Shown here piece after piece: positions 1,076 through 25,632 of a DNA stretch of 26,288 nt. The translations under genes were made by a program, and so were the position numbers. A model generated the notes under the pieces. It was not told the origin of the DNA. It saw nothing but the letters and a program-made list of their open reading frames with translations, and made no database searches. Within the stretch, counting starts at the first letter, position 1. Each line of letters starts with the position of its first letter. The DNA comes from a virus. Where the stretch lies: the IMG/VR virus record IMGVR_UViG_3300013372_003728, positions 1-26,288 of that record; one strand, given 5' to 3'.

Positions 1076-2827
1076 TCAGACATCAAATCTGATGATAACA
1101 TTCATGTCCACGTCATCTCTTTTTTCAAGTGGACTACTCATTTTTGCAATAGCAATCAGTTCATACTTATCGTTATACAATCCAATTGTTGTAAAATACG
1201 GATTAAAGAACGAACTTGTTGCAAAGTCTTTTATCTTATCAAATGTTGGTACATTTCCTTCAATTATCGTTGGATTTTGAGTAAAATTATACTCATTTTT
1301 TCTGATTTTACAAACTATTTCATGTTCATAAAATGTTGTTGTACTCTTGAATCTTGCAGAAAAACCGTCGGTTCTTCCATTATAATCATAATTACCACTT
1401 CTACCTAATAATGAGTTATGATATTTTGGTCTTGGGTCTGATACAACAATTACACCGTCTGGATAAAAGACATTACCGACGATATTTGTTTGGTAAGCAT
1501 AACCAAGATCGTAAGAATTATCAGCAAGAGCACTAATTTGTGCTGATGTTAAAGCTTTTTTATAGATTCGCATCTCATCCAAAGATGCAGAAAGAATACC
1601 ACTCGTTGTTCCATTACCACCAATAAACATTTCATGTTCGTTATTCACGTTCACAGGTATATCGATACTTGAAGTAGCATCGATAACACCGTTTATGTAA
1701 ATACTGTAAAGGCTTCCGCTCTTTTGACAAAGCACATGATTCCAACTTCCTGTTGCAAGTGAAGAAGAAGATGTTAGTTCTAATGTCTGTAAACCAGATG
1801 AACGACCAAACACAACTTTATGTGGATTTGGTGATGTATAATTGTTGATCTTTACGTCAAATGGGTATTGGAATGTTTTTTGTTCTTGATATTCGGTTAC
1901 ACTTGCACGAGTTTGTGTATTTCTATAATCTACAAGTTTCATCGTATTTTTATTTATGACGTTGTTGTAGGTATAGTTTACATTTGATTGTGTGGCCGGC
2001 ACATTTACCCAGAAACTAATTGCAAAGTTTTGTTTTGGTTGGATGTTGAAATTTTCTTTACTAACAACCTTAAAATAACCACCGTTTAATTGAGCAGATG
2101 TTCCACTTGAAGAAACAGGTGAAGTCGTCGGTATTCCCGGTATAAATGAAATTTGTTTTGGATAAACATAGTCAATTTGATTTTTAACAGGACTATAATC
2201 CATCACACCAAGAGTTTGTTTGTTTCTGAAATTATATGCTCGGTATTGTTCGTTGAATCCCATGTTTAGGATGCAAAAATCATCACCTATTAACTTTGTT
2301 GTATCATAATCACCATCGACCAAGTTTCCATTTGTGTCATCGGTGAGTGTGTATGCAAAGTATGAAGAAGAACCATAGTGGTCTATTTGTACAGAACCTG
2401 GTTTTATTCTTTCCCCGAAAACATTTTGTGGTATGATTATAGTAGAACTTGACTCATAAAGAAAAGTTTTCGTAAATGAACCAATCAACTTTGGTGGTTC
2501 ATTTCCTCTGTCAAAATTATCGTAATAATTGTGGTCTAAATAATACCAAAGAAGTTTTGGGTCAAGACTTTGAGTTGTGAATGTTCGCTCGTAAATAGAA
2601 GAAGATATATTTGCAACACCACCGAAGTATTTATCGTTTTCTGGATAAAGAGCTCGGTATACTTTTATTCCGTAACTTTCATAGAACGTTGATACACCGG
2701 CAAATGTCTCAGAATGATCACTTGCAATTCTCCAATTCTTAAATGTCTGAAATGGTTTTACTTCGTAATCTCCTTTTTTGAGATTCTTGTAAACAAGAGA
2801 CACCATATTTCCACGTTGGAATTCCAT
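1076..2827 (-). CDS. Virion protein with LamG-like domain inserted in the paralog scaffold
   Basis: This 583-residue protein is the last of five related genes. Residues about 240-440 look like a LamG/concanavalin-type jelly roll: an early FAISFWVNV strand, then GSWNHVLCQKSGSLYSIYING, and finally LDEMRIYKKALTSAQI. Such domains often bind sugars. The flanks belong to the scaffold of the neighbouring genes: FGERIKPGSVQI and LTDDTNGNL before it (about 137-168), FYPDGVIVV after it (454-462), and a C-terminal module ending in TTIGLYNDKYELIAIAKMSS (546-565). Its ATG overlaps the upstream stop in a TAATG junction. No good ribosome site precedes that ATG, and Met8 (MVSLVYKN) is an alternative start. 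It is likely a tail, fibre or baseplate surface protein. The exact virion location is unknown. Confidence 0.8.
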   Translation of the reverse strand: MEFQRGNMVSLVYKNLKKGDYEVKPFQTFKNWRIASDHSETFAGVSTFYESYGIKVYRALYPENDKYFGGVANISSSIYERTFTTQSLDPKLLWYYLDHNYYDNFDRGNEPPKLIGSFTKTFLYESSSTIIIPQNVFGERIKPGSVQIDHYGSSSYFAYTLTDDTNGNLVDGDYDTTKLIGDDFCILNMGFNEQYRAYNFRNKQTLGVMDYSPVKNQIDYVYPKQISFIPGIPTTSPVSSSGTSAQLNGGYFKVVSKENFNIQPKQNFAISFWVNVPATQSNVNYTYNNVINKNTMKLVDYRNTQTRASVTEYQEQKTFQYPFDVKINNYTSPNPHKVVFGRSSGLQTLELTSSSSLATGSWNHVLCQKSGSLYSIYINGVIDATSSIDIPVNVNNEHEMFIGGNGTTSGILSASLDEMRIYKKALTSAQISALADNSYDLGYAYQTNIVGNVFYPDGVIVVSDPRPKYHNSLLGRSGNYDYNGRTDGFSARFKSTTTFYEHEIVCKIRKNEYNFTQNPTIIEGNVPTFDKIKDFATSSFFNPYFTTIGLYNDKYELIAIAKMSSPLEKRDDVDMNVIIRFDV

Positions 2828-4920
2828 TAATTTAATCTCACTTTCACTTCGAAGACGTATGATTTTGAACTATTTTTCAATATAGGATTCTTTACCTTAC
2901 CCACCGCAACCAATGAACCAGCTTTGTTGTAAAGACCAATGGTGGTTATGTATGAATGAGGATCCCTTCCAAAATAAGTATACTTCAAATCATTATCACT
3001 ACCAGAAACATAAGTTGGATTTGTTGAATAGTTAAATTCATTTTGCCCAACTCTACAAAAATACGTTTCTTTAACTACCTTTTCACTTGAACGAGCAAAA
3101 AATGAACCAGAAAAACTACGGCTAACGGTAGTTGAGGCGGAACCACTTATTGATAGGAATAATTTATAAATGTTATCACCATCAATTGAGGCAGTAACAG
3201 TGTTGAAAGAACAAGATTGATCCAACACATTCCCATCTAACACAATTAGACCTATTCTTGGAAACACCACACCCCATGCGTTATCACTTTCTTCACCATA
3301 TACACCATCTCGTTTTGAACCAGATGTAACGTAATACCATTCTTTCAAACTTTTTTCATCGGTTGCATTTTGTTTTGCATCCCAACTCTCGTCTATAAGA
3401 GTGTATATCGTAGTCGAAGATTGATTTAACGTACAGTTACTTCCAGTGTTGTATAATTGATTGACACTCGAAGAAAGTGGCGAAACACAAAGTTCAAAGT
3501 TTCCTGGGTCTAACATATCTTTGAATTGGTCTCTATCCATCTGAATAAAGTAAACAGAATCACCGTTCACTCCATTTTTGAATTCAAATTTTGTTGGTCT
3601 TGCCTTACTTGAAGTTGGATTTGGTTCATAGCATTCTAATAGGTATTTTTTATACATTACCTGCGATGGTCTTGTTATACCCCCTTGAATTAAATGATAT
3701 GAACCAGAGCCAAATCTATGACCATAAGAAATATCAAATTGATGATAGGATTCCGCGGAATTTGGTAGTTTGTTGTAAACAGATAAGTAAAATTTATCAT
3801 TAGTTAATCCGTTTGAACCCGTAAAAAAGGTATGTAGACTTTCCCCTGCACACTTCCAAAGTGGTGTTGTTCTATACTCGATTGTTGGTGATGATTTGTG
3901 AATAATCCGTGAAAGTGTTTTTGTGACGTATGTTCCATTATCATCATCTACTAAAACACCACCACCAAAATCATCAATTACATCATCAATCAAATCACGT
4001 AAATCACCAGTTCCAGTTAAAACAGATATTAGTTTTTCACCAGTTATTGGTTTTGTTAAGTCCCCATCCTCATAGACATCAAATTTAACAACCATCTTAT
4101 GTGTTGCTTCCGCCTCGTCAAACGGTGTATATTCAACTTCAAAGGTTCTACTTTCACCAGGTTGAAGTTCAAAATTCGAAATAGGGTTTACTATTGTAAA
4201 ATATTTATCAGATTTTGGATTGAAGTCTGTTACGACTAATCTTGTTTCACCCCTGTTTTCTACCAACAATGATTTTGTTTGTTTTGTTTCTAAAGGAACT
4301 ATTCCCCAAGATTGATCATTTGCGTAAAAGTTAGAAATCTTTTTTGGTGGACATTTTTCTAAATCAGGTACAGCTATCGTGTTTATAAGATTATCTATCT
4401 CTTCTTTTGTATTTGTTGGTGGAAATACAGTAGATTCTACAATCTCAGGTTCACTTTCAAATGGTATAAAAAACGTTTTTGGATCATTTACATTTCTGTT
4501 ATCGTTTATGAAAAAATCACCAGAAACTTGTAAAATATCACCATTACCATCCAACCAACAATTCACAAGTATAACCGGATATTTTACTGTTTTCTCTCGA
4601 GCAAAAGTTGTGAAGTTTGATTTCAAACAAGGATAACCAAGATATCCAAGATTTTTATTCAGTTCTTCTGATATTGGTTTTGATTCTGATATTTGAACCT
4701 CATTCTCAAATTGAGGTATTCTACCATCTTGATCTTCAAGGTTTCTATCTTTTGTATAGGTAATAAGATTGTTTATGTAAGCTGGACTACCACCTACAAA
4801 TAAACCAGGTATTGTTGGATTTCCTGATAAAAGTTGTGGTGCACGGGTATATGGTGCCAGTCCTTTTGAAAACTGTTCTATTTTTTCAAGAGAGTCAAGT
4901 GTGATAATCTTTTCTGTCAT
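2827..4920 (-). CDS. Virion protein, paralog with ASH/Hydin-type Ig-like domain
   Basis: This 697-residue protein is the fourth gene of the paralog array. Residues 1-200 resemble part of the N-terminus of the gene before it, around LGYPC and NCWLDGNGDILQVSGDF. Residues about 205-305 fit an ASPM-SPD2-Hydin (ASH) Ig-like fold: LLVENRGETRLVVTDF, then LQPGESRTFEVEYTPF, and a closing LTGTG. Residues about 350-697 are the shared scaffold: FDISYGHRFGSGS, FKDMLDPGNFEL, VVFPRIGLIVLDG, SFNTVTASIDGDN, and a C-terminal module with YITTIGLYN. I see no signal peptide, transmembrane segment or enzyme motif. The ribosome site is weak, and translation may be coupled to the upstream gene, whose stop is 1 nt away. 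It is probably a structural surface protein. Confidence 0.78.
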   Translation of the reverse strand: MTEKIITLDSLEKIEQFSKGLAPYTRAPQLLSGNPTIPGLFVGGSPAYINNLITYTKDRNLEDQDGRIPQFENEVQISESKPISEELNKNLGYLGYPCLKSNFTTFAREKTVKYPVILVNCWLDGNGDILQVSGDFFINDNRNVNDPKTFFIPFESEPEIVESTVFPPTNTKEEIDNLINTIAVPDLEKCPPKKISNFYANDQSWGIVPLETKQTKSLLVENRGETRLVVTDFNPKSDKYFTIVNPISNFELQPGESRTFEVEYTPFDEAEATHKMVVKFDVYEDGDLTKPITGEKLISVLTGTGDLRDLIDDVIDDFGGGVLVDDDNGTYVTKTLSRIIHKSSPTIEYRTTPLWKCAGESLHTFFTGSNGLTNDKFYLSVYNKLPNSAESYHQFDISYGHRFGSGSYHLIQGGITRPSQVMYKKYLLECYEPNPTSSKARPTKFEFKNGVNGDSVYFIQMDRDQFKDMLDPGNFELCVSPLSSSVNQLYNTGSNCTLNQSSTTIYTLIDESWDAKQNATDEKSLKEWYYVTSGSKRDGVYGEESDNAWGVVFPRIGLIVLDGNVLDQSCSFNTVTASIDGDNIYKLFLSISGSASTTVSRSFSGSFFARSSEKVVKETYFCRVGQNEFNYSTNPTYVSGSDNDLKYTYFGRDPHSYITTIGLYNKAGSLVAVGKVKNPILKNSSKSYVFEVKVRLN

Positions 4921-4921
4921 A

Positions 4922-7612
4922 TCACCAATTCAATCTTATTTTTATTACCAAATCAGTATCAAAGTTTTTCTTTACCGGTTTACTCAATTTTGCAATAGCA
5001 ATCAATTGTCTATCACTATCGTAAAGACCGACGGAAGTTATATATGTTTGTGGATCATCTATAAAACACTTGTCAAATATTTGGTTCAAAGAACTACTAA
5101 CAAATGTTGGATTGTTGCTATAATTGGTGTAATTTGGAAATACTCTGACAAAATAATGTGTAGATGTCTTGTATGTTATATTTCTTGCCGCCATATAATG
5201 ATTTTCTGTTCTACCTGTTGTTGGTGAAGCTGCTCCACTTATAGAAGTAAGTAATTTGAAAGCATTATCACCAGCGATATTACTACCGGTTACCGTATTA
5301 AATCCTAAAATTTCGTTTAATCGTTTTGGATGTAGTAATATAACACCAATTTGTGGGTATACTTTTCCGTATGTGTTAACAGAAGCGTTTTCATACACAC
5401 CACCATTTAGTGAACCAGAAACAAGATTGAATGATACCAACTCACCACCATCACAAACCATACCTTCATTATATTGTCCTGAGTCATCTATGAATGACAT
5501 GACGAATGGACTACCAACTTTTACATTGCTTCCCGTGTGGTAATTATTTGCATAAAAACTACCGCTCAAGTATGACATATTTATTTGGAAGTTTCCGGCA
5601 TCTAATCTATCACTTAAACCATTTCTGTAAAAATTCATTACATAAACATCGTCCGATTCTACGTCTGTACTTTGACTTACAAATGAGAATTTAGGTAGTG
5701 TATGTCCACTACTTGTTGTATATGTTGCACCATCAAGACAGATTAACTGATACTGTGAGTATACACTATCGGTAGGTGATTTTGTAAATTGATACTGGTC
5801 TACTTTAATTGAACCAGAACCTGCATAATGACCGTAAGATACCGCAAAATAAGGGTCTCTACCACAGTTATCACAATCGGTTATATCATAATAATAAGCC
5901 TTTGATTCCGTTGGTTGTGTTGAACTTGTAAGATAACAAAGTAAATTTTCTTGGTTATTAAATAATCCCTTTGTTATGTATTTACGTCTACCTTGTATAA
6001 CGTCTTTCTTCCTATCCAATGGGTGAAACACCTTTGGTGATTCTTCATCAACACATCTTGGATCAATTATTTCTCTACGCTTAATATGTGTTATAGTGTT
6101 TTTAACATCTTTTCGATATGCTAACCCAATTTTTTTATCACCATAGTAACAGTAAACATCTGCTATTTGTACTTCCTCGCAACCACACGATTCTAAAAGT
6201 ATCCATTCCGCCGTTGACATATCGAATTGCAAACGAGAACGATTTGCGGGTGGTATGAATGAAACATTCGGATCATCTGGTGCATAATCAGGGAAAAATT
6301 CAGCATCTTGACAACAATTTGAAGCAGGGTCATATTCCCGTGTATTTGGTATAGACACACCCTTACTTGCCGGTTGAGTTGTTATGTATGCAGTGAAATC
6401 ACCGAGTCCACCTGTTATTAAAATTGCACCATCTGTTCTATAACAGATTTTTAATTTTACATATTTTGTTTCTACATCAACTTGAAAATCCGCAATCTTT
6501 TCACGTTCACATGGAAAACCAATGTCTACCAAATTTCTAAAACTTTCTGTTCCAGGAATTGGTCTACGTGTATTTTCAAGAACTGTTCTTGTTGCGTTAT
6601 ATTCTAGAAGTTCTTCAAGTGAAGTTAAAACAATTACTTGTCCTCTATCATTTACTTCATATCTTGGAGTTCCTCTTCGAGATAATCTACCTGGAACTGT
6701 TGTGTTTGTTCCGGCATCAAGTTCTCTTACTGTTTCAATATCGTCTATCGTTATACAGTAAGGAAAGTCTGGTGGATTACCTGGCTCTTCTTTTGTGAGT
6801 TCACATGGACCGTCATACATACAACCAGTATATATTACATCCCATGTTGGATTACCGTCACCATCTCTTCCAGTTGGGTCGGTTGTCCATGAGAGTAAAC
6901 CTTGTGACCATGGTATAACATTTACTTTATTTCCAGAATCACTTGTTTTTGCCTGTGTTATTACCGTCGATGTTGGTTGAATATTAAACGATTGACGTAT
7001 TGTTCTTAAATAAGTCGCATAATCAACAGGTCTAGTTTGAAGTGGACATTCGCCCCATACAAAATCTTCAGGACTTGGAAGTCTAAATCCCCTGTTATTT
7101 GCTATAAAAGTATTGTCCGGTATAAGAGTTTCGCGATAAAAACCGTAAAGTTCATCTAATAGTATGAATTGTTGGACTCTTATCTTTTTACCTTTTTTAC
7201 CATTCTCTTGACAATCCAACCAAAAACTTGTTTGTTTTGATCGAGCAACAAGAACTTCACCGATTCTTTCTTTTACACCGTTATCATTACAACAACGATA
7301 AACGTCAACCCAAATTTGACATTCTTCTTGTGCCTCTGTTCCATATCTATATTCTATGTTTGAATCATACCACGGACTGTCTGGTGTATGAGAGAATCCA
7401 GATTTCTTTGTTTTAAATGAACGTGTGTCAATGTAAAAACTATAATTTTTACAACCACCAGATGTTCGTCCACTATCATTGTCTGGATTATAGAATAAAG
7501 CAGATGTTTCTGGAATTGGTGGCATTATTGATGACATAAGGGGCTCATTGCTACTTATCAGATTGCCCATGACATCATATACAGGGTTCATATCGTTGAT
7601 ATTAGTTGCCAT
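4922..7612 (-). CDS. Virion protein, paralog with long Cys-rich N-terminus
   Basis: This 896-residue protein is the longest of the five paralogs. Residues 1-545 form a unique region with many cysteines, often paired or clustered (RCCND, GCMYDGPC, NCCQD, ESCGCEE); by hand I count about 22 in the whole protein. Residues about 548-896 are the shared scaffold: FAVSYGHYAGSGS, YRNGLSDRLDAGNFQI, VYPQIGVILLHP, FNTVTGSNIAGDN and a C-terminal module with YITSVGLYDSDRQLIAIAKL. Some of the cysteines, such as DCDNC near 579, lie inside the scaffold. Clustered Cys suggest metal sites or disulfides that form after release, but no known zinc motif can be assigned. The ATG has no recognisable Shine-Dalgarno sequence in the 20 bases upstream. 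The function is probably virion surface structure. Confidence 0.78.
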   Translation of the reverse strand: MATNINDMNPVYDVMGNLISSNEPLMSSIMPPIPETSALFYNPDNDSGRTSGGCKNYSFYIDTRSFKTKKSGFSHTPDSPWYDSNIEYRYGTEAQEECQIWVDVYRCCNDNGVKERIGEVLVARSKQTSFWLDCQENGKKGKKIRVQQFILLDELYGFYRETLIPDNTFIANNRGFRLPSPEDFVWGECPLQTRPVDYATYLRTIRQSFNIQPTSTVITQAKTSDSGNKVNVIPWSQGLLSWTTDPTGRDGDGNPTWDVIYTGCMYDGPCELTKEEPGNPPDFPYCITIDDIETVRELDAGTNTTVPGRLSRRGTPRYEVNDRGQVIVLTSLEELLEYNATRTVLENTRRPIPGTESFRNLVDIGFPCEREKIADFQVDVETKYVKLKICYRTDGAILITGGLGDFTAYITTQPASKGVSIPNTREYDPASNCCQDAEFFPDYAPDDPNVSFIPPANRSRLQFDMSTAEWILLESCGCEEVQIADVYCYYGDKKIGLAYRKDVKNTITHIKRREIIDPRCVDEESPKVFHPLDRKKDVIQGRRKYITKGLFNNQENLLCYLTSSTQPTESKAYYYDITDCDNCGRDPYFAVSYGHYAGSGSIKVDQYQFTKSPTDSVYSQYQLICLDGATYTTSSGHTLPKFSFVSQSTDVESDDVYVMNFYRNGLSDRLDAGNFQINMSYLSGSFYANNYHTGSNVKVGSPFVMSFIDDSGQYNEGMVCDGGELVSFNLVSGSLNGGVYENASVNTYGKVYPQIGVILLHPKRLNEILGFNTVTGSNIAGDNAFKLLTSISGAASPTTGRTENHYMAARNITYKTSTHYFVRVFPNYTNYSNNPTFVSSSLNQIFDKCFIDDPQTYITSVGLYDSDRQLIAIAKLSKPVKKNFDTDLVIKIRLNW

Positions 7613-7621
7613 ATTTGATTA

Positions 7622-8728
7622 TTAGAAATCTAGTTTAACTTTTATGACAACTTCTTTTTCAAACGATTTTTCTATTGGTTTGCTTAGTTTTGCAACAGCA
7701 AGTAAATTTGTACTGTCATCATATAAGCCAATAGTTGTCAAATAAACAGAAGGGTCTGTTACCATTCTTGCATATTTAACTACACCTAAACTCCCTGTTA
7801 AAAATGTTGGATTTGTACTATAATTGTATTCACCATTGTAAAGTCGAACAAAATAGTATGTTGAAGATACAACTTCACTTGTTCTACCTTCGAAGGAATA
7901 CGACGAAGTATTAAATGACATTGCACCACTAATCGAAGTAAATAATCTGAACGCATTATTCTGATTTATACTAGCAGTGGATGGTGAACGATTTGTATAA
8001 AACGATGCACTTGCATCGAGAGCTTTACCGTTTAGAACAATAACACCTTGATCTGGGTAAAATAATCCCCACGGCGTTGTGTCTGGTGTGTAAGTACCAT
8101 TTGCAATCGAACCACTTACTACGTTATAGACTCTGCCACCACCAACCGTGTATTCGGTTGAAGATGCACCAGAGTCGTCTATGAGTGTTATGACGTCGGC
8201 AGATGTTGCTATAGATGCTGAAGTGGTCGCACTTAATTTACCGATAGAAAGTTGCCAATTACTTGTGTCTACTTTGTCTTTATATCTGGCTCTGTTGACG
8301 TTAATAATGTAAACATATTCAGATGTTTCTGAATTTTTAAACGTAAATGCATTTTCACCAGAATCTAAAAGTAATTGCTTATATTGCTTGTAAACTGCTT
8401 TTGTTGGATAATCATCTATATTACCAGTACCGCGGTCAGATCCACTACCAACAGAATCACCATAAGCGACTGAAAATTGTGGTTCCGCAATTACTAAATT
8501 AGATGAAGTATTATAAATCTCGTAGTAATATCTTTTCTGATTACTATTCTGATAAGAACTTGTATATATGTCATAAAGAGTAGCCCGACTATTTGACCAC
8601 AATGGAGAAGTTACAACTTCTTTTTGACCGTCGGAAACGTCTACGTCTTCAACGAAGGGAGTAAAGATTCTCCCATTTTTTAAAGCCAAACGAAGTTCGG
8701 AACTAGAGTTTCCAGTTATTTCAGCCAT
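7622..8728 (-). CDS. Virion protein, minimal scaffold paralog (368 aa)
   Basis: This protein is almost entirely the shared scaffold and so shows its natural limits. In order it has PLWSNSRATLYDIYTSS, FSVAYGDSVGSGS, TKAVYKQYKQLLL, YKDKVDTSNWQLSIG, VITLIDDSGA, VYNVVSGSIANGTY, FYPDQGVIVLNG, FRLFTSISGA, YYFVRLYNGEYNYSTNPTF and the C-terminal YLTTIGLYDDSTNLLAVAKL. Only about 40 residues precede it. I see no enzyme motif. It is 4 nt downstream of its closest relative (the 388-residue gene) and 9 nt upstream of the Cys-rich paralog. The ribosome site is poor. Repeated Ser/Gly/Thr and beta-rich sequence fit a multimeric tail or capsid surface protein. The virion position is unknown. Confidence 0.78.
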   Translation of the reverse strand: MAEITGNSSSELRLALKNGRIFTPFVEDVDVSDGQKEVVTSPLWSNSRATLYDIYTSSYQNSNQKRYYYEIYNTSSNLVIAEPQFSVAYGDSVGSGSDRGTGNIDDYPTKAVYKQYKQLLLDSGENAFTFKNSETSEYVYIINVNRARYKDKVDTSNWQLSIGKLSATTSASIATSADVITLIDDSGASSTEYTVGGGRVYNVVSGSIANGTYTPDTTPWGLFYPDQGVIVLNGKALDASASFYTNRSPSTASINQNNAFRLFTSISGAMSFNTSSYSFEGRTSEVVSSTYYFVRLYNGEYNYSTNPTFLTGSLGVVKYARMVTDPSVYLTTIGLYDDSTNLLAVAKLSKPIEKSFEKEVVIKVKLDF

Positions 8729-8732
8729 AATT

Positions 8733-9899
8733 TTAATATTCCAGTTTTACAGTAACGGATAATTCAGAGTTAAAGTTCTTCTTAATTGGTTTACTCATCT
8801 TAGCAACAGCGAGCAATTCACGATTTTGATTATACAATCCGATTGAAGTTACGTAAACATTTGGATTATTTACAAACTTAGTGTCTCTGATTGAATTTAG
8901 TGAACTACTAACGAATGTTGGATTATTTGAGTAGTTAGCAGATGCCGGTCTTACTCTAACATAGTAGTAAGCAACTTCTTTCTTTTCTACACTTCTAGCT
9001 GTAAATCCATATCCAGTTCCAAGTACACCCGAACCACTTATCGATTTAAACAGTTTGAATGAGTTATCACCTGCAACACCACTACCAGTTACCGTGTTGA
9101 ATGATGCACTTAAATTGAGAGTCGCGGCATCAAGTACGATGACAGCATTATCTGGATATACAAGACCGTAGTAGTGTGGTGCAGATGGATTGTAAATACC
9201 ATTTGCAATAGAACCACTCACAAGATTTCTAACAGGAAGTGGTATTCCCTCATAACCGAGAGAGTCATTGGCATCACCAGAATCATCTATAAGTGATATA
9301 ACTTTATTTGATGAAGATGGGACAACATTACTTCCAGTGAAAACATTGTTTGCATAAGCACTACCGCTAAGTTCTACAAGGTTTAATTGGAAATTACCTG
9401 GGTCTAATTTATCCTTGAATCTTGCACGATTAAAGTTTACAACGTAGATGTGTTGTATATCTACACCGTTTGCCATCGTAAATAATTCATCTCTACCGAC
9501 CGCACTTCCACTATCTGCCAAACCTTCCAACAACATCGAACGATATTGTCCGTATATTGCCTTTGTTGGTGTATCACCGACTTGACCACCACCAGTTGCA
9601 GAACCAGACCCAGCATAGTGTCCGTAAGCAACAGAGAACATCTCTTCATCACCACAATCGGATGATGCCGAGTATGCAACTTGGTAATGGTAAGTTTTTG
9701 AACCAGACCATTGCGTTGAACTTGTAAAGAATGTTAGAAGTTCACCGAGTCCGTCGGCCCACAGACCTCGTGTTGTGATACTCGTTTCCATTGGTGGTTG
9801 AAACCCAGCACCGGGTAATTCCTCGAACCCCATGTAGACACCATACGCAGTGTCAGCCGTTGTACCATTTGGACTAAGTTTGTTATATTCAAAAGCCAT
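8733..9899 (-). CDS. Virion protein, minimal scaffold paralog (388 aa), first of the array
   Basis: This is the first transcribed gene of the five-member family. After a 45-residue leader it has only the scaffold: LWADGLGELLTFFTSSTQ, FSVAYGHYAGSGS, FNRARFKDKLDPGNFQLNL, VISLIDDSGDA, NLVSGSIANGIYN, VYPDNAVIVLD, SFNTVTGSGVAGDNSFKLF, YYYVRVRPASANYSNNPTF and YVTSIGLYNQNRELLAVAKM. It has the best ribosome site of the group, GAGG followed by TAAAAA and ATG, so it may set the translation rate of the block. Other members lack clear sites and may rely on coupling. No catalytic motif is seen. Structural protein is the safest call. Similar C-terminal modules occur, as far as I recall, in environmental T4-like phages without an assigned function. 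Confidence 0.78.
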   Translation of the reverse strand: MAFEYNKLSPNGTTADTAYGVYMGFEELPGAGFQPPMETSITTRGLWADGLGELLTFFTSSTQWSGSKTYHYQVAYSASSDCGDEEMFSVAYGHYAGSGSATGGGQVGDTPTKAIYGQYRSMLLEGLADSGSAVGRDELFTMANGVDIQHIYVVNFNRARFKDKLDPGNFQLNLVELSGSAYANNVFTGSNVVPSSSNKVISLIDDSGDANDSLGYEGIPLPVRNLVSGSIANGIYNPSAPHYYGLVYPDNAVIVLDAATLNLSASFNTVTGSGVAGDNSFKLFKSISGSGVLGTGYGFTARSVEKKEVAYYYVRVRPASANYSNNPTFVSSSLNSIRDTKFVNNPNVYVTSIGLYNQNRELLAVAKMSKPIKKNFNSELSVTVKLEY

Positions 9900-9940: not shown

Positions 9941-10666
9941 TTAGATTGAAGTTGTATTTGCATTAATGTCATTAACAATAGAGATAGGTATAACGATACG
10001 ACCGCCGGTTTCGTTTCCTGTGATGATAAGCTTTGTTGTCTTTGTTACTGCCGGATCAAGTTGTTGTGCTCTTGGTGTAAGAGCAAACTTGATTGTTGCG
10101 AAACTTTCACCACTTGGTGGTGTAAGAACGGCTGTAATTGAAGTTGCTGGGCTCATTGCATTTGGTGGATTAACGAGAGCCGTTCCGGTTCCTTTATCAC
10201 CAACCATACTAACATATGTGTTATCTAAAAGCATCGCTGTATAACCAGCTGTTCTATTAAAGATGTTCTTCGATTTATCCGCATCAGGTGCACCTGTGAA
10301 ATATGTTCTAACTTCAATAAAGTTAAGACTATCTGTGCTTGCCTTGACTGTAATTGTTGGTTTGCTAGATTGTAGATATGGTATCTGTGAAACACCACGA
10401 GGTAAAGTGATTAACTTATACTTCATTGATTGTGTTTCATCAGGTACGGCTTCTGTAACTGGCATATGTTCGATTACTGTACCATAATATGCAGAACCGA
10501 GAGGGTGTGCTGGATTCCACAAATCGTAATCCACCTCATCGTCAGCGAGAGCAAATTGAGTGATTTGGAACCCGTTAGCAGTTCCCCGACCCATCGCTAG
10601 AAGCTCTCTACCCCTCTTGGTTAAAATAGCGTCTACTGTAATTGTGCTGTTATCCAAATAACCCAT
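9941..10666 (-). CDS. Conserved phage structural protein (MGYLDNST family)
   Basis: This 241-residue protein has a very characteristic N-terminus: MGYLDNSTITVDAILTKRGR, then FQITQFALADDEVDYDLWNP. I recall this block from many environmental T4-like phage genomes, where it is called a structural or hypothetical protein. The C-terminal half (about residues 100-241) is Thr/Ser/Val-rich and probably beta-sandwich, with strands such as TVKASTDSLNFIEVRTYF and GGRIVIPISIV. There is no signal peptide or membrane helix. It has a strong ribosome site, AAGAAGGAG, 7 nt before the ATG, and one of the longest gaps in the window upstream, so it may begin its own transcript. It stands between the wedge genes and the paralog array, which fits a tail or baseplate component. 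The function is unknown. Confidence 0.8.
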   Translation of the reverse strand: MGYLDNSTITVDAILTKRGRELLAMGRGTANGFQITQFALADDEVDYDLWNPAHPLGSAYYGTVIEHMPVTEAVPDETQSMKYKLITLPRGVSQIPYLQSSKPTITVKASTDSLNFIEVRTYFTGAPDADKSKNIFNRTAGYTAMLLDNTYVSMVGDKGTGTALVNPPNAMSPATSITAVLTPPSGESFATIKFALTPRAQQLDPAVTKTTKLIITGNETGGRIVIPISIVNDINANTTSI

Positions 10667-10733: not shown

Positions 10734-13700
10734 TTATTTTCCTATCAAATTACCACGGTCAAAATACGTGTTATAAATAATTTGAGTAGAACCAACATTA
10801 TGTACTTCAACAACGGGTTTACTGTCTGGTGTATTTCTCGTATTTACATTTATATCAGGTCCAACTAACTTGCTACCGATAAAACGATGGTTTTGTAAAC
10901 CTATTGCAGCATTTTGTTGATTTGTTGTTTTTGATGATGTCAACGACGAAGAATAAAATAAATTAGCAACCATGTCCTTTGAACTACTATAATATAAATA
11001 GTATACACTATAAAAACCGTCTTGTCTTGGTGTTTCGATAAACTCCATTAAAGCTGTCAATTTTGATTGTGCATTAGTTCCAGTTGCCCATCCCAACCCA
11101 TATCCGTAGTCAATACTTTCAGTTGTTTTTGAAATATTTTCTCGTATGTATTTTGTATTTGTTTCTATATCAAACGAACCGTAGTTTTCAAGACTATTAT
11201 ACAAACCAGACATACCATATATGTCCGAGCTGTTTCTGTTTAAAACCGTCATTGATATACTGTTTAAGTTTGAGTCCAAAGAAGGAGAAACCATATCAGT
11301 TATTGAACTTTCCATTCCGTTATATGTAGCATCTGGATTAGATGTTTCCACTAAAATAGAACTTTCAACGTTATTATAATTTACTTGTGGATTCGATGTA
11401 ATTACTGCAACAGACGTTTCTTTATTCTCATACATTATCTGTGGACTTGGTTTTGATATAAGAACAGAACTTTGTTGACTGTGGTAATTTACCGCCGGCG
11501 ATGGTGAGTCTACTCCAATAATTGTTTCTTTATTGTTGTAAGTTATAATTGGAGAAACTATCGAAGCAGTTACAATACCGACTTTATTTTCTGGTGCAGT
11601 TGTGATAATCGTTTTATTTGGAATATCATATTCACCTTGAATATCATCGGCTACTTCACCGTCGGTAATATCAAATCCAATCATTTGGATTGATGTTGCC
11701 TTTGAAATATACTCCATCTTTGCAACAGCCGAAGATGAAAGTTCAGTTGTTCTAAATACGTTATTAGCTTCGCCGCTGATATTCTTACCAATATTACCTA
11801 CTTTTGATCTTTCGAGTATATTTGGTTCAACAACAACACCCAATATAGGATTGGCCCTAGCAGGGAGAGTTTGTCTGATTTGGTCAAACACACTAAAATC
11901 AAATACAGAGATTAAGTCCAGATAAGCATTAAAGTCATTTTTGTTTGGATATTTTTGCCAGTATTCTCGCGATAACCATCTTAAATTCGGATAATATCCT
12001 TTTGATATGTTTGAATAATCACCAATGTAATCGTCAAGAGCAACACCACCAAGAGATTCGTAAATATCTTCGTTGATTACACTTTGTGGTGAAAATGCAA
12101 TCATCAATTTGTTTGAATCAACGGAGTATTTATCAAATGCAGAAACTTCAGCACTTCTATCCGTACTTAATCCAGCAATAAGAGAACCAGAGTCTATACG
12201 AACTTTTTCGGTGTATATTGTGTTGTTACCAAGTGTAGCAACTTCCATGTTGTATGTTTCAACTATGGATTCAAATGCACCAGAATTGAATCCTTGAAAA
12301 TGGGCAGATTTTGAAGAACTATAAAATGATGTTTTTGTTTGGTCTGGATGTGAACTTGATAAACTTGTTGTTACAGCTACGTTGAATTTTTGCCAGAATT
12401 TGAATTGAGCTTGTAAATCATAGAACGATGATGTTTCTGTATTACCATTGTATGCACGTGCGGAAAGTACATGGTTGTTGAAAGAAGATTCTGTCAGTGG
12501 TGCTGACCAATATCTTAACTCAAACACCGAACCTGATAGTATTTTATCAGTTTGTGAGTTCGAACCAGAACCAATGTATAGATTACCGTCGGAAGACCAT
12601 GCTTGGTTATAACTACCGCTTAAACTTCCACTCACAACTATACTTGCAGAACGTTCGACTGCAATCTTCCCGTATTTATTTGTCTTTACGAAGAAATCAT
12701 AAGTCTGTATCGACGAAGTAGAATCATTTGAAAGACTTCTACGAATCATCAAGTTTAATGGAACGTCATCATAAAAATATTCATCCGTGATGGATGCGGT
12801 TGCATATGTTGTACCATTACCAATGTAAAAATAGATAGAACCCTTTTCAACATCAGTTCCATTTTTATTCATCGTCACAAACCAGTCAACTCTGCTTCCA
12901 GAATTTTTTTGTAAGAGTGTTTGAACTGGGTCGGCCGAATACTTATAAAGTTTGTTTGGCTCCATCTTCCAACGGAACGTCAGAGTATCAGGATATTGCC
13001 AATTACCGACTGCATTATTTACCTTTTCCCAAGGCGTTCTGATATAATGTTGATGTGTTGGTACTGGATAACTACCGGAGAAATTCAAGTAGTATGTGTG
13101 TTTTTCCCACTCGGCTCTTGGTATAACACCCAAGTCAGCATTATCCGGTCCACCATATTCACGAATCGTCAAAAGTGTCTGTGGTATACCATAAGCAGCA
13201 AGAAGTGCCTTTACACCACGAGATGTTCCCTTTGATTTATAGATGTATGGAAGATTGTTGAGAATACGTCTCCAAACTTCCTTCGTTCTTTCTTCTTCCG
13301 TTTTAGCAAGATATTTGTTTGTTGTAGTTTTACCAGTCCAAATCGGTTCACCACTTCCACTCACACCAAGTGCATATTCCCATAGGTCTTTTGTCTGTGT
13401 TCCGTGTGAAAGTGTCCATCCAAGATTTCTTGTTGCATCAAAAATAAGATCTTGGGACATACCAGATTTTGGATTTTCTTCACGTAAATTCTTTTTCAGA
13501 ATGTGATCGGTATATGAATACATGACGTCAAAGTGTTGGCCAATCATATTCACAAATGTTGTGAATTGATCGTTATCATCATCTTCTCTCAAATACTCTG
13601 GTATCGCTTTGTTTAATGAGTTGTAATTCTTTAAGTCATAATTACTTGCACTGACTATTAAGTTATCATACCAATCTTGTGTCTGTGATGAACCTGACGT

Positions 13701-14903
13701 GTAGAATTTGTACTTACCTTCTTTTGTTGCTATATTATAATCAGAACCAGTTACTTCATATTTTGGATATGGAGTTATTGTTGACGCCGATTGGTATGTG
13801 TAGTAATTACTGGCTGTTGTTTCGTAATACAACCACTTTTCAAAGGAATCAAACCCACTAATTGTTTTATCACGAAGTCCACGTATCTTTACTTTGTTTG
13901 ATGCAACTGAGCCCGTGTATGTGTCTAACAATACCAGTTCATTGTTGTACCGTTCAATTAATTCCATCTTGTAGACAAAGTTGTCTAATCTATCTTCCGC
14001 CGATGAATAAAATACAAAGTTTTCAAACTCTCTAAAATCTACGTTTAGTTGAACAGGTATATTACTTGACGAAATGTACCTGTCTAAAATTTCTTGTGAA
14101 GTCTGAACATTTGTAGATAGAATCTCGTTCCAAGATTTATAGTCAGTTTCCGTTGAAATCCAATAATCCCTGTCAACCTCAAAGTTTGGTCCTCTTAGTC
14201 TATTGGGTTCTACTGGTAATTCTTCTACTATGTAATTAACCGTATCAATGTACGGCTTCATTAGTTCTTCAGCGACCCAACATTGGAAGAAAATATCTAA
14301 GTCGGCTGGCAGTGGTTCATATAATTTTACAAAGAAACTATTGATACTTCCGTTGAAATTTACATTTGGTGATACGTTGATTATGCTGACAATCTTGTTT
14401 TCACCAAAATTCAAAACCATTGTTGGGAAAGATGGTGTTGGTTTCAAGTAAGAAAGAACAAAGTTCTTTATTTGTTCAACACCTTCTTGTGAATCAGGAT
14501 TTACAAGTGAAAGTTTTAATTCCGTTCTATCCGTTGATATGTCAGAGATAAAAAGTTTTATACGGCTATCATATCCACCAATCCAATTTTTAAAAAAGTT
14601 ATAAACAACTTTGTAGATACCCGGTAGATTTCTAGTCGCTCTCATATCTCTATGGACATCCATAGATGCGGCTGTTCCATCTACTTTCCAAGATTCTATG
14701 TTGTATAACGAAGAGACATATGCACCATTTGGTAAAAATGTATGGAACTCATACGGATCTGTTGGAGTTGGTGGTGGATCAACAGATGGAACTACGGGTT
14801 TCTTTTCTAAAAGATTGTTATCTTCTAAAGTAACACGTATACCTCTAATCGGAAGATTAGTTTCTAATATTTCGTCAATATTTTTATATTCAAAATTTGC
14901 CAT
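10734..14903 (-). CDS. Large baseplate wedge protein, gp7 / P2 gpI-like, with LamG-like domain and repeats
   Basis: This 1389-residue protein is the largest in the window. Residues about 440-590 contain FVNMIGQHFDVMYSYTDH and then NNLPYIYKSKGTSRGVKALL followed by AAYGIP and IREYGG. This LP-x-IY-(K/R)-x-KGT-x-(R) block is typical of phage tail protein I (P2 gpI), the counterpart of T4 gp7. Residues about 640-820 look like a LamG-type jelly roll (YDFFVKTNKYGK, NLYIGSGS, VFELRYWSAPLTESSFNNHV). Residues 1117-1206 are five 18-residue repeats. The order gp25, gp6, then this gene parallels P2 W-J-I, which supports the call, although two other genes intervene. T4 gp7 is 1032 residues; the excess is the LamG-like and repeat regions. 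It has an AGGAAG ribosome site and follows the previous stop by 1 nt. Its wedge role is inferred from context and one motif. Confidence 0.75.
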   Translation of the reverse strand: MANFEYKNIDEILETNLPIRGIRVTLEDNNLLEKKPVVPSVDPPPTPTDPYEFHTFLPNGAYVSSLYNIESWKVDGTAASMDVHRDMRATRNLPGIYKVVYNFFKNWIGGYDSRIKLFISDISTDRTELKLSLVNPDSQEGVEQIKNFVLSYLKPTPSFPTMVLNFGENKIVSIINVSPNVNFNGSINSFFVKLYEPLPADLDIFFQCWVAEELMKPYIDTVNYIVEELPVEPNRLRGPNFEVDRDYWISTETDYKSWNEILSTNVQTSQEILDRYISSSNIPVQLNVDFREFENFVFYSSAEDRLDNFVYKMELIERYNNELVLLDTYTGSVASNKVKIRGLRDKTISGFDSFEKWLYYETTASNYYTYQSASTITPYPKYEVTGSDYNIATKEGKYKFYTSGSSQTQDWYDNLIVSASNYDLKNYNSLNKAIPEYLREDDDNDQFTTFVNMIGQHFDVMYSYTDHILKKNLREENPKSGMSQDLIFDATRNLGWTLSHGTQTKDLWEYALGVSGSGEPIWTGKTTTNKYLAKTEEERTKEVWRRILNNLPYIYKSKGTSRGVKALLAAYGIPQTLLTIREYGGPDNADLGVIPRAEWEKHTYYLNFSGSYPVPTHQHYIRTPWEKVNNAVGNWQYPDTLTFRWKMEPNKLYKYSADPVQTLLQKNSGSRVDWFVTMNKNGTDVEKGSIYFYIGNGTTYATASITDEYFYDDVPLNLMIRRSLSNDSTSSIQTYDFFVKTNKYGKIAVERSASIVVSGSLSGSYNQAWSSDGNLYIGSGSNSQTDKILSGSVFELRYWSAPLTESSFNNHVLSARAYNGNTETSSFYDLQAQFKFWQKFNVAVTTSLSSSHPDQTKTSFYSSSKSAHFQGFNSGAFESIVETYNMEVATLGNNTIYTEKVRIDSGSLIAGLSTDRSAEVSAFDKYSVDSNKLMIAFSPQSVINEDIYESLGGVALDDYIGDYSNISKGYYPNLRWLSREYWQKYPNKNDFNAYLDLISVFDFSVFDQIRQTLPARANPILGVVVEPNILERSKVGNIGKNISGEANNVFRTTELSSSAVAKMEYISKATSIQMIGFDITDGEVADDIQGEYDIPNKTIITTAPENKVGIVTASIVSPIITYNNKETIIGVDSPSPAVNYHSQQSSVLISKPSPQIMYENKETSVAVITSNPQVNYNNVESSILVETSNPDATYNGMESSITDMVSPSLDSNLNSISMTVLNRNSSDIYGMSGLYNSLENYGSFDIETNTKYIRENISKTTESIDYGYGLGWATGTNAQSKLTALMEFIETPRQDGFYSVYYLYYSSSKDMVANLFYSSSLTSSKTTNQQNAAIGLQNHRFIGSKLVGPDINVNTRNTPDSKPVVEVHNVGSTQIIYNTYFDRGNLIGK
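11286..11555 (-). repeat. Five tandem 54-bp (18-residue) repeats in the gp7-like gene
   Basis: The sense strand encodes five consecutive 18-residue units with no indels: SPIITYNNKETIIGVDSP, SPAVNYHSQQSSVLISKP, SPQIMYENKETSVAVITS, NPQVNYNNVESSILVETS and NPDATYNGMESSITDMVS. The core is (S/N)P-x-x-x-Y-(N/H/E)-x-x-(E/Q)-(T/S)-(S/I)-(I/V). They cover residues 1117-1206. The units have diverged in DNA as well as protein, so the array is old rather than a recent slip. A regular Pro/Tyr/Asn period of this size fits a beta-repeat or extended stalk. It is not a CRISPR array, because there are no distinct spacers and the reading frame continues through it. Confidence 0.9.
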
Positions 14904-14904
14904 T

Positions 14905-16155
14905 TTATCTTCCTATTGACGGACCTCCTAGATTTGCAGGATTACCACCGAGAGGACCAGAAGGACCACCTGGTGGGCCACCACTGGTCAAAGTAGATGT
15001 TCCTCCACCCGATGATGTACCCCCACCAGATGTTCCTCCACCCGTACTTCTTAGTTGATTTTTCAAATCTTCCAATTCCTTTTTGAGAGCATTTATTTGG
15101 TCATCCTGTGCTTTATTTGCTGCGTTTGCTTGATTCACAACAACTTGGGAAAGTGCATCAATTGCCGATGTTACAGTTGTCATCTGACTCGTAACATTAT
15201 CTTGAAGATTTGTAAGTGTTTCATCAACAGTTTCTTGAAGATTTTTAATTGACTCATCTTTATCTTCTATCTGTTGGTCTTTTATCATGTTGTCCATTGC
15301 AATAGAATCTATAAACGACTCATGTTCTATCTCCGAGTCCACCATTGATTCTATGAGTTCTTGTTTTGCAACAATAATAGATTCCAAGTTTTCTATCTTT
15401 GCCTGTAATCCAGCTACTGAATTTTCATCTTCGTTTTTAAGATTTGATATGTCTGACAAGAACAGATCCAATTCTGCACTTGTTGTCATACCCTCTATTT
15501 TTCGAAGTATATTCCTTTCAGATGAAACAGCTTCTGGTAAACTTTCGAATCCTCGCTGAACAATATATGTAAATCTCTTTGTTGTAAATCTTTCGTCAAG
15601 TATAGGAACTTTAATTCTTCCTTTATTTCGGAATATATTTTGGTAAGACATAAGTCTGCCGTTTTCATCTCTGACTAGTTCTACGTCTTCCGCAAAAATA
15701 TCCGTGTTTACTTTTATCAGTTCTTCCAACAAAGTTTTAAGTTGTTCTGATGGTAGAACGCCAGTCTCACTTCCCGTTAAGATTTTTCTTACGATATAGT
15801 AATCGAAAGCATCCAAGTCATATTGTGATATACTGTTTATTGCATTTTTTATGGCTTGTGCATCTCTTGTACCTAACAACGATGATGCTTGTTTCTGTTC
15901 ATTTATAAACTTTTTAACAATCTCATACTCATAACCTTGTTTAAAAGACTTAAACTTTTCAAGGAGATTTAATCTTTCATCCGAAGTTGTTTGCTTATAT
16001 CGTTGTAATTTTATACCATTACTTTTGAAGAATTCGAAAAATTCATCATAGGTATTCATCGTAAAATTTGGAAAATTATCAAGGATATATTCCGCTTGAT
16101 TTATATCGATGTCTGCAAGGAAAAGAAACTTTACCAAATCAACTTGGGTACTCAT
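14905..16155 (-). CDS. Coiled-coil phage protein with glycine-rich C-terminal tail
   Basis: I do not recognise this 416-residue protein. Residues 1-230 form a helical, charged domain. Residues about 235-370 are predicted coiled coil by heptad pattern (for example AGLQAKIENLESIIVAKQEL and DQINALKKELEDLKNQLR). Residues 371-416 are a low-complexity tail: GGGTS repeats, then PPGGPSGPLGGNPANLGG, which is collagen-like without a strict G-x-y period. Its start overlaps the stop of the preceding gene as ATGA, with AAGG upstream. It sits between the DNRLRE-like protein and the gp7-like wedge protein, where T4 has no equivalent. A trimeric fibre, spacer or baseplate linker is plausible from coiled coil plus flexible tail, but this is inference. 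Confidence 0.72.
   Translation of the reverse strand: MSTQVDLVKFLFLADIDINQAEYILDNFPNFTMNTYDEFFEFFKSNGIKLQRYKQTTSDERLNLLEKFKSFKQGYEYEIVKKFINEQKQASSLLGTRDAQAIKNAINSISQYDLDAFDYYIVRKILTGSETGVLPSEQLKTLLEELIKVNTDIFAEDVELVRDENGRLMSYQNIFRNKGRIKVPILDERFTTKRFTYIVQRGFESLPEAVSSERNILRKIEGMTTSAELDLFLSDISNLKNEDENSVAGLQAKIENLESIIVAKQELIESMVDSEIEHESFIDSIAMDNMIKDQQIEDKDESIKNLQETVDETLTNLQDNVTSQMTTVTSAIDALSQVVVNQANAANKAQDDQINALKKELEDLKNQLRSTGGGTSGGGTSSGGGTSTLTSGGPPGGPSGPLGGNPANLGGPSIGR
14995..15042 (-). repeat. Short GGGTS coding repeat
   Basis: The sense strand encodes GGGTS-GGGTS-SGGGTS (residues 372-387 of the coiled-coil protein). The DNA repeats a short Gly-Gly-Gly-Thr-Ser unit three times with small changes. 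It probably makes a flexible linker. Such tracts can change length by slippage. Confidence 0.8.
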
Positions 16156-17321
16156 CTTGTAACCTTGAAGTAATAGTTGTTATCAAAAATCTGGACTGTA
16201 TCTCCACCGTCTGTTTCTGTTTTTACAACTACGCGATAAAATCTTTCTGGTTGAAATGAATCCATCCAAAGATTAAAATAGTTTCCATCGGAATCACAAC
16301 TTATTTTTGAACCTGTACTATTAAATGGTAGGATTATTTCGTCTGTATGTGCATCCCTAATTTCGTAGTAGGATGATGTTGGAATATAGTAATTTTTAGT
16401 ATAATACGATTGAGTTGTATATTGTTTCTGTGGGTATCTTGTGTTCGTATTTATACGAATTTTCGCCTTTTCATTTTGTGTGTATGACTTTTTGAGTTTA
16501 ACATTCAACAAAAGATTTTCATCAGATACCTGCGTCAAACTTCCAGTTGTAAATGATGAATCGTCCCAAACAATGTGAAGTCTCGGAACATATATTGTAT
16601 TACTATCCGTTCCAAAAAATTTCAAACTACTATATGTTTCTGTTGATGATTCAATATCATTACTGAATTTTAGAATCATACCGTCGTTGTTAAATCTACC
16701 AGAACCAGTTACCCATTTTTTTACAATTTGAGTGACATCCATGTAAATATCAGAAGACTCGTATGTAAATGATTGTGTACATTCAAGATTATCAAAATTC
16801 CACCATGTACCACCACCTTCTGTTGTAAAGTAAGATGAGGTAATATTTGCTGTCAAATTTACACCAAAAAGTATATTTGCATCTACCCAAGTTTGTGATA
16901 TACTGTCCCATTCGTAATCTATAATTGCAGGTGGTATTTCCCACTCGATTCCCGTGGACTTCGATGTTCTGTATTTCCACGATACACCATCAGTTGTTAC
17001 CGGTGTATTATAATAACGACCTGTTCCATTTGTCCATGAAGAACTCAACGGATAAGCGTATACAGTATATTCCTGTGGTATTTCTCTAACTTCTGTTGAT
17101 CGAAGTGCAAGATAGTATTTTGCAGTAGAAAGTGGTATTTTCCCAGAGTTTATTTTTTCTTGGAGTGGTGCCGTATCAAACTTCAATAAGACACGGCTAT
17201 TGTATTTTGAAGTACCGTTGTATTCATGAGTTAATTCAAGAACAGAATCCAATCCAGTATTTTTTGTTTCGGATTTTTCATAAATAGTTGCGTCTTTTTG
17301 TGCATAAAGTGTGTATATCAT
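16152..17321 (-). CDS. DNRLRE-like baseplate-region structural protein
   Basis: This protein has 389 residues. The first 260 fit the DNRLRE/CBM96-like beta-sandwich seen in surface and phage proteins: DATIYEKSETKNTGLDSVLE, SRVLLKFD, AKYYLALRST, YTVYAYPLSSSW, a central DVTQIVKKWVTGSG and YSSLKFFG...VPRLHIVWDD. The last 110 residues look like an Ig-like or Fn3-like domain (SYYEIRDAHTDEIILPF, DGNYFNLWMDSFQPERFYRV). No enzyme motif is visible. It lies directly after gp6 with an ATGA overlap and before the coiled-coil gene with another ATGA overlap, so the three are probably translationally coupled. The likely role is a wedge-associated structural or carbohydrate-contacting component. The location within the baseplate is inferred from gene order only. 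Confidence 0.75.
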   Translation of the reverse strand: MIYTLYAQKDATIYEKSETKNTGLDSVLELTHEYNGTSKYNSRVLLKFDTAPLQEKINSGKIPLSTAKYYLALRSTEVREIPQEYTVYAYPLSSSWTNGTGRYYNTPVTTDGVSWKYRTSKSTGIEWEIPPAIIDYEWDSISQTWVDANILFGVNLTANITSSYFTTEGGGTWWNFDNLECTQSFTYESSDIYMDVTQIVKKWVTGSGRFNNDGMILKFSNDIESSTETYSSLKFFGTDSNTIYVPRLHIVWDDSSFTTGSLTQVSDENLLLNVKLKKSYTQNEKAKIRINTNTRYPQKQYTTQSYYTKNYYIPTSSYYEIRDAHTDEIILPFNSTGSKISCDSDGNYFNLWMDSFQPERFYRVVVKTETDGGDTVQIFDNNYYFKVTR

Positions 17322-19213: not shown

Positions 19214-19707
19214 TAGTTTTGTGCCTCTTGAATCCGTAAATTACCTGTATCAGATATAAATATCTGAATGGGTAAATATATGTTCGTTCCCGTGATTTTG
19301 AGTTCGAGAAATATACCAATGGCATGATACGGGTCATCGACTCTACCGTCATCTGCCATATTAAAGTTTACATCCAAACGAGTAATGTTCAAGTATGGCA
19401 ACCAAGTTGTTATTGCAGATATTATATCACCCTTTATCTTTTCTTCCAAATCACCTTCACTGTTTATATTTTCAAACAAAATGAACCGCAATTCACTTCC
19501 AAAGTCAGGTTGCATATATCTCTCCCCTTTAGCGGTAGAAAGAAGATTCTTGACGTTTGAAAATGCCTGTTGTCTATTTGTATAGCTTTGAAAAAATATA
19601 CCATTCGGATTATTGAAAGGTATTGTTACACCAATAGGTTTAGTGTAATAGTTTATAGAAGAGCTTGGCTCATTTATAATGATACTCTTTCTTCTAAATC
19701 GAGCCAA
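19213..19707 (-). CDS. 25: Baseplate wedge protein gp25 (GPW/gp25 family), TTG start
   Basis: This 164-residue protein has the GPW/gp25 fold signature: FSNVKNLLSTAKGERYMQPD, FGSELRFILFE, then a strand-helix block (ISAITTWLPYLNITRLDVNF) and a C-terminal LELKITGTNIYLPIQIFIS. gp25 forms the core of the wedge with gp6 and gp7 and triggers sheath polymerisation. The start codon is TTG at 19705-19707, chosen because AGGGAGA lies 6 nt upstream and because there is no ATG nearby that keeps the N-terminal strand. T4 gp25 is 132 residues, so this form has a longer N-terminus (MARFRRKSIIINEP). It overlaps gp6 by 1 nt and begins 3 nt after the previous stop. Confidence 0.92.
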   Translation of the reverse strand: MARFRRKSIIINEPSSSINYYTKPIGVTIPFNNPNGIFFQSYTNRQQAFSNVKNLLSTAKGERYMQPDFGSELRFILFENINSEGDLEEKIKGDIISAITTWLPYLNITRLDVNFNMADDGRVDDPYHAIGIFLELKITGTNIYLPIQIFISDTGNLRIQEAQN

Positions 19708-24974: not shown

Positions 24975-25625
24975 TTACCTCGAAAATTTTGGTTGAATGA
25001 TGGTATCTATAATACCAAGTTCAATCGCTTCTTCGGGTGAGAGATAATAATCTTTAAGGATTTTGTCTTTCCAAAACAAAGAATCTTGCTTAGAGTTAGA
25101 TGTGATTATATTAATCAAAATTTCTTCCAGCTTTTCCGTGTGTTGAACATTTGCCTTCATATCCGAAGACTTACCATAAATACCAGAGCTGATTTCGTGG
25201 AACATGATTGTACTATTCTTTGAAGCAACACGATTACCTGTTCCCGCGCAAAGAAGAAGGGCAGCAGCTGACATTGCACGTCCACGGCAAATTGTATTGA
25301 CCTTGATATTTAGACTTTGCATAAAGTCAATCATACCAAGTGCCTCATAGACATCACCACCGTCTGAGTTGATTACCACGTTAATAGGGTCGTTCTTCTT
25401 TTCCTCACCCCTCATGTGGATTATTGCCTTAATTTTCAAGGTAAAGTCATAAAGAGTACCGTCAGCTATATCACCAAACAAATAAATGGTTGAACTTTCT
25501 ACGTCAATCCCATAATCCATTTGAGCGAGTGCTTCTTTCCAACGAACGGGTAAATCTTCTGTTTGGTCTGCCTTTGTCTTGTTTGTCTTGATTTCATCAA
25601 TCTCTTCTTCATACATATTTGCCAT
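24975..25625 (-). CDS. clpP: ClpP-like serine protease (peptidase S14)
   Basis: This 216-residue protein has the full ClpP fold signature: TIYLFGDIADGTLYDF, NVVINSDGGDVYEALGMIDF, then RGRAMSAAALLLCAGTGNR with nucleophile Ser119, TIMFHEISSGIYG with His143, and KDYYLSPEEAIELGIID with Asp192. The triad is complete and the length equals bacterial ClpP. The start is uncertain: AAGGAG lies 7 nt before the ATG at 25623-25625 but only 1 nt before the in-frame ATG at 25629-25631, so I prefer the inner one (the outer would add Met-Val). In phages, ClpP-like enzymes serve as prohead proteases or modify host proteolysis. T4 relatives normally use gp21 for the prohead. Its place next to gp55 rather than the capsid genes makes a regulatory or proteostasis role as likely. 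Confidence 0.92.
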   Translation of the reverse strand: MANMYEEEIDEIKTNKTKADQTEDLPVRWKEALAQMDYGIDVESSTIYLFGDIADGTLYDFTLKIKAIIHMRGEEKKNDPINVVINSDGGDVYEALGMIDFMQSLNIKVNTICRGRAMSAAALLLCAGTGNRVASKNSTIMFHEISSGIYGKSSDMKANVQHTEKLEEILINIITSNSKQDSLFWKDKILKDYYLSPEEAIELGIIDTIIQPKFSR

Positions 25626-25632
25626 AACCATA

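Follow-up and report, generated by a model that had tools for sequence, protein, structure and literature searches.

The window analyzed here is a virus record of 26,288 bases, probably a fragment, whose main genes lie on the minus strand. Positions 1076-9899 are occupied by five consecutive minus-strand ORFs, which are separated by a few bases or overlap by one base; these junctions are tight and operon-like. The genes were lettered A to E in the order of transcription. Four of them are copies of one type, termed 'a'. Gene A (copy 1; 8733..9899, 388 aa) carries a scaffold at 8736-9776 which ends in a C-terminal module at about 8736-8948, and gene B (copy 2; 7622..8728, 368 aa) carries the scaffold at 7625-8614. 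Genes C (copy 3; 4922..7612, 896 aa; scaffold 4925-5977) and D (copy 4; 2827..4920, 697 aa; scaffold 2830-3870) additionally possess variable N-terminal extensions, a Cys-containing one in C (5978-7612) and one with an ASH/HYDIN-type Ig-like domain at about 4078-4311 in D (3874-4920). Gene E (1076..2827, 583 aa) represents a second type, 'e', with a putative LamG_3 lectin insertion at about 1532-2053 and a shared C-terminal region at about 1079-1480.

A first-pass annotation had described five adjacent genes with a common C-terminal module, four of which share a complete scaffold of about 330 residues. A six-frame search with A alone recovered C (E = 1e-87, 46% identity), B (E = 4e-71, 45%), D (E = 3e-55, 39%), and E (E = 2.7e-11, 33%, query residues 295-386 only). 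A-D aligned over the complete scaffold (330-351 residues), and the motifs listed earlier were recognisable in each of them, with substitutions. When the profiles of the two types, built from 94 'a' scaffolds and 50 'e' proteins, were aligned by hhalign, 154 columns within the last ~170 residues matched with Prob 99.2 and E = 1e-19. Furthermore, structures were predicted for A (pLDDT 82, pTM 0.76) and for the 'e' protein of locus L089 (306 aa, the smallest complete 'e' in the alignment; pLDDT 75). A by-eye comparison found helices and strands in the same order in both models, and the same 11 proteins topped both lists when the models were searched against a library of viral models. Because of the profile match, the common order of elements and the common top fold matches, the similarity lies far beyond chance and cannot be attributed to low-complexity Ser/Gly; A-E are paralogues. 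The search with A, the profile comparison and the models thus confirmed the five-gene array, with four scaffolds of ~330-350 residues at 39-46% identity, and the relationship of the fifth gene, for which neither a missing HMM match nor unrelated folds were found. The common module stood as well, but its proposed length of ~80 residues did not, since A-D and E match over the last ~170 residues.

The scaffold gave no convincing match to Pfam and PHROG models, and its only PDB sequence matches, to caspase-3, were due to chance. In public viral contigs, at least 569 stretches code for relatives of the family. Annotated phage records containing it are those of Microcystis phage Mel-JY01 (five places), Flavobacterium immuto phages, Rhodothermus phage RM378, and a 484-kb uncultured phage; DNA-level similarity of the window to named phages was not detected. 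When bacterial and archaeal genomes were scanned with one pattern, only three MAG contigs matched, two of them labelled Flavobacteriaceae. The phage most likely belongs to the far-T4 group (PMC4360716): homologues of 'a' and of the neighbouring gene M occur in RM378, and gp6 and gp25 are present in the window, with no gp23 gene recognised on the 26,288-base fragment. Far-T4 phages are common in aquatic samples (PMC4360716), and their hosts are predicted to be mainly Bacteroidetes/Flavobacteriales (PMC7198788, PMC13037479). A literature search returned no description of the far-T4 receptor-binding apparatus no virion proteomics, and nothing useful on Mel-JY01, on the virion proteins of immuto or on the phi812 arm segment considered below.

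The genes upstream of the array, all on the minus strand, were examined next to those of its relatives. Gene M (9941..10666, 241 aa) is conserved directly upstream of the array and is preceded by gene Z (10734..14903, 1389 aa), a conserved large protein which served as an independent marker for the phage tree. Upstream of Z lie the variable gene Y (14905..16155, 416 aa), gene X (16152..17321, 389 aa), which is conserved downstream of gp6, and genes for a gp6-like (17318..19213; PHROG 219, 6.8e-19) and a gp25-like baseplate wedge protein (19213..19707; PHROG 261/43, 1e-11 and 1.8e-10). The order gp25-gp6-X-y-Z-M-a(n)-e was constant in about 80 loci, as far as the contigs reach. Among the 74 complete arrays, in which M and 'e' are both present, 60 contained one 'a' gene, three contained two, ten contained four, and one contained seven; the loci had been selected for similarity to A and B-D, so that these proportions should not be read as population frequencies. 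One 'a' gene with one 'e' gene is the usual state, and the window belongs to the type with four 'a' genes and 'e'.

Several candidate relationships of the neighbouring genes were rejected. A link between gene Y and array expansion was dismissed because an ORF of some kind occupies that place in every locus having X and Z. Gene Z matched neither T4 gp7 nor P2 gpI in weak tests with single sequences on one side, and gene M gave no match to the 'a' family. Gene X showed a weak match to the carbohydrate-binding module CBM96 (8.6e-5), which is below the cut-off. Elsewhere in the window, positions 20227-21864 encode a cell-wall hydrolase within the baseplate cluster, consisting of a chitinase/endolysin-like part and a second, peptidase-like endolysin part (PHROG), and positions 24975-25631 encode a ClpP-like head maturation protease (PHROG 94, 6.9e-40); the protease of RM378 is annotated as T4 gp21-like.

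The N-terminal extensions comprise 545 residues in C and 349 residues in D, whereas A and B have almost none. Across phages, the extension length ranges from 501 to 1020 residues in C and from about 77 to 534 in D. Compared with the orthologues of L008, L009, L013, L014, and L015, the extensions of C and D were 25-33% identical over aligned residues; identity of the full-length scaffolds was 43-64% for C and D (the D scaffold of L013 being covered in part only) and 48-75% for A and B. Hence, the extensions of copies 3 and 4 diverge faster than the scaffolds, which can also stem from weak constraint. In the window, the ASH-type Ig-like domain belongs to the extension of copy 4; L015 has this type of domain in the extension of copy 3 (L015:12182-14299) and lacks it in copy 4, which suggests that outer domains have been shuffled between the paralogues; copy 3 of L016 gave a related Ig-like match. 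In E, LamG_3 covers residues 259-432 (Pfam E 1e-16, 61.7 bits against a cut-off of 27.6). LamG was present in 49 of the 50 'e' proteins and missing from that of L089; the short 'e' proteins of L010 and L012 also lack it in the alignment. Judging from these short proteins, LamG in E is either an insertion or was lost in L089, L010, and L012. Pfam scans of A-E and of a set of extensions revealed no enzyme domain, and no depolymerase domain was found.

Among the annotated relatives, Mel-JY01 is closest in layout. Its genes WWT39513-WWT39517 (PP395634), annotated as hypothetical proteins, are the same five genes in the same order with the same neighbours, and their scaffolds are 50-64% identical to those of A-D, whereas the C and D extensions are only 27-28% identical to those of the window. 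The immuto phages and LR756508 encode the same family with 'a' and 'e' following M; they differ from the window in having one 'a' gene and an 'e' without LamG. RM378 likewise differs in having one 'a' gene, and no 'e' was found in the stretch of RM378 that was read.

At its end (YITTIGLYNDxxELLAVAKLSKP), the scaffold is similar to a portion of the N-terminal domain of P2 gpH (PF12571, Phage_tail_fib). We built a profile from 11 diverse gpH-type domains and obtained matches in the GLYDDxGxLxAVAN region, short ones of 21-38 columns, for the 'a' family (score 40.5, E 4.5e-5; best shuffle 20.2) and for the 'e' family (score 46.2, E 1.4e-5; best shuffle 18.8). Additionally, the N-terminus of gene M matched the first half of PF12571 (score 39.7, E 2.5e-5; best shuffle 19.6). 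We do not claim PF12571 membership for the family because each E-value stems from one comparison, the matching regions are short, and a search of the window with the Pfam HMM PF12571 itself found nothing at E ≤ 10. As a side observation, the first half of PF12571 resembles the N-terminus of M and the second half the C-terminal module of 'a' and 'e', as though neighbouring genes each carried one part of it. In P2, the gene for the tail fibre protein gpH directly follows those for gpW, gpJ, and gpI; we take gpW to be gp25-like and gpJ to be gp6-like. The array family thus resembles gpH in the short GLYDDxGxLxAVAN motif and in gene position after gp25/gp6-like genes, and differs from it in that the domain is N-terminal in gpH and C-terminal here. 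The PF12571-like motif together with the gpH-like gene position therefore points to docking on the baseplate edge.

With moderate confidence, we favour the reading that A-E are five distinct subunits at the periphery of the contractile-tail baseplate, which are docked by their C-terminal scaffold and display adhesin domains. Presence in the virion, C-terminal docking, outward display and receptor binding are what we infer here; a location at the baseplate is suggested by the gene neighbourhood and the short PF12571-like module. Among the weak fold hits of the models are tail parts, namely T4 gp8 and an arm segment of phi812 ('e' model, Z 5.3, 75 residues). The side facing the virion would be the common scaffold with its terminal module, docked to the baseplate wedge close to the M and Z proteins. 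What is not shared, such as LamG in E and the long extensions at the N-termini of C and D, would point outward and may bind host-surface glycans or other receptors. The first-pass annotation had suggested, as one of two options, that the array serves to vary host contact; the fast-diverging extensions of copies 3 and 4 and the lectin domain of E fit a role in host contact, in which virion presence and the contact itself are presumed.

Alternatively, the array proteins could be purely structural wedge subunits of the T4 gp8/gp10/gp11 kind, in which case duplication would have led to a larger or less symmetric baseplate ring, the extensions would serve as inter-subunit arms, and receptor binding would reside in genes off the fragment. 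The top fold matches of the 'a' model included T4 gp8 (1n7z; Z 4.1, 80 residues, rmsd 3.6) and a KP1-variant baseplate chain (Z 4.3), which together span 74-80 aligned residues. The gene position after gp6 agrees with a structural function, A and B are almost without extension, and immuto has separate downstream genes annotated as tail fibre and tail spike. However, Z values of about 4 are common among unrelated folds. Homology to T4 gp8, guessed from a similar C-terminal pattern, was rejected since neither Pfam PF09215 nor a gp8 profile matched and the fold comparison did not rise above a Z of about 4. The likeness to gp8 thus consists of gene position after gp6 in the wedge cluster and a weak fold resemblance, whereas sequence or profile similarity is lacking and gp8 has no lectin or long extensions. 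Furthermore, a lectin-type domain in nearly all 'e' proteins and the hypervariable extensions suggest contact with something variable. We consider a purely structural function rather unlikely.

A position elsewhere on the virion, as neck whiskers, collar or head decorations, appears quite improbable. The phage neck protein 9c39_K matched both models (Z 4.4 and 4.6), and the 'e' model matched a P1 head chain (Z 5.5), but the matches are weak and cover one beta-sandwich, and the array sits among baseplate genes, gp25 and gp6 included. A Foldseek search of the 'a' model against the PDB gave no match at E ≤ 0.001. Altogether, the structure comparisons yielded no confident relative; the fold matches at Z 4-5.5, with tail, head, neck, and non-phage proteins, lie within what common beta arrangements give and are best taken as hints.

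The history of the array was analyzed with trees obtained by quick searches without bootstrap. The scaffold tree, which comprised 91 sequences, placed every one of the four copies in a separate clade across 10-12 phages (SH-aLRT 99, 99, 100, 98), and gene B grouped nearest to single-copy genes of other far-T4 phages. In the tree of marker Z, the twelve four-copy phages formed one clade (SH-aLRT 100); the four-copy state of L007, L013, and L024 was assumed from incomplete arrays and their grouping. Comparison of the window with L007, whose scaffolds of A-C are 90-96% identical, gave dN/dS values of 0.02-0.15 in Z, M, A, B, the C extension, the C scaffold, and the D extension, where the value was highest; the D scaffold and E are left out because L007 ends in D. 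The copy-by-copy clades, the fixed order and the purifying selection where tested imply that the duplications are old, predate the divergence of the four-copy phages, and yielded copies which are not interchangeable. Most simply, the array expanded once in the common ancestor of the clade and kept its order from then on, and other lineages (L018/L019, L078/L079) expanded theirs separately. It is very improbable that the array is a young and unstable tandem amplification in which adhesin variants are shuffled among copies without fixed roles: copy number does differ between lineages (1, 2, 4, 7) and the ASH-type domain changes copy between the window and L015, but the copies are only 39-46% identical to A, the parts compared are under strong purifying selection, and the separate clades in the same order across phages largely refute it.

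These data support the earlier proposal that one scaffold was duplicated repeatedly and that its copies then gained different domains, in a T4-related baseplate cluster in which gp25 and gp6 were detected; a recent expansion received no support. Of the two functions proposed for the array, a multi-part organelle fits the fixed copy clades across 10-12 phages better than varied host contact by ongoing duplication. On the favoured reading, an ancestral pair 'a + e' became 'four a + e' once in this lineage, and each 'a' copy then took a fixed place. A more specific version is possible, though we propose it only tentatively: a heteromeric organelle of five paralogous subunits (up to eight in L079) at fixed, non-equivalent addresses, with C-terminal docking, variable N-terminal receptor domains, and a gpH-type domain split between M and the C-terminal module. 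Display of N-terminal domains via a C-terminal scaffold would, if true, reverse the usual polarity of phage adhesins. The branched tailspike TSP1-4 of Ackermannviridae is encoded by neighbouring adhesin genes with conserved N-terminal assembly domains and variable C-terminal beta-helix enzymes. Both systems would combine a conserved assembly domain with a variable receptor domain in genes for one multi-part organelle, whereas the scaffold of the array is C-terminal and no depolymerase domain was found in it.

We regard the array as genuine: a far-T4 gene family that is widespread, and of which the literature search found no description, has expanded specifically in this lineage. Duplicated adhesin or baseplate genes which build a multi-part organelle are known from other phages; unusual are the C-terminal position of the conserved part, the fixed series of five genes, and the possible split of a gpH-like attachment domain. 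The analysis provides a profile of this family, for which Pfam and PHROG have no model, together with the gene order to be expected and candidates for adhesin parts. Baseplates with one, two, four, and seven copies form a natural series for studying how a phage organelle grows by duplication.

Three further arrangements were observed among the relatives. In RM378 (L011), the single 'a' gene lies between two M paralogues (11761-12378 and 13635-14342). The array of L078/L079 consists of seven 'a' genes and 'e', with strongly diverged middle copies. Finally, where the extension of copy 4 is short, about 80-90 residues, a small extra gene of 128-167 aa is located between copies 3 and 4 (L014:15673-16113; L017:8798-9235; L050:12369-12752; L060:10993-11394; L061:15749-16249).
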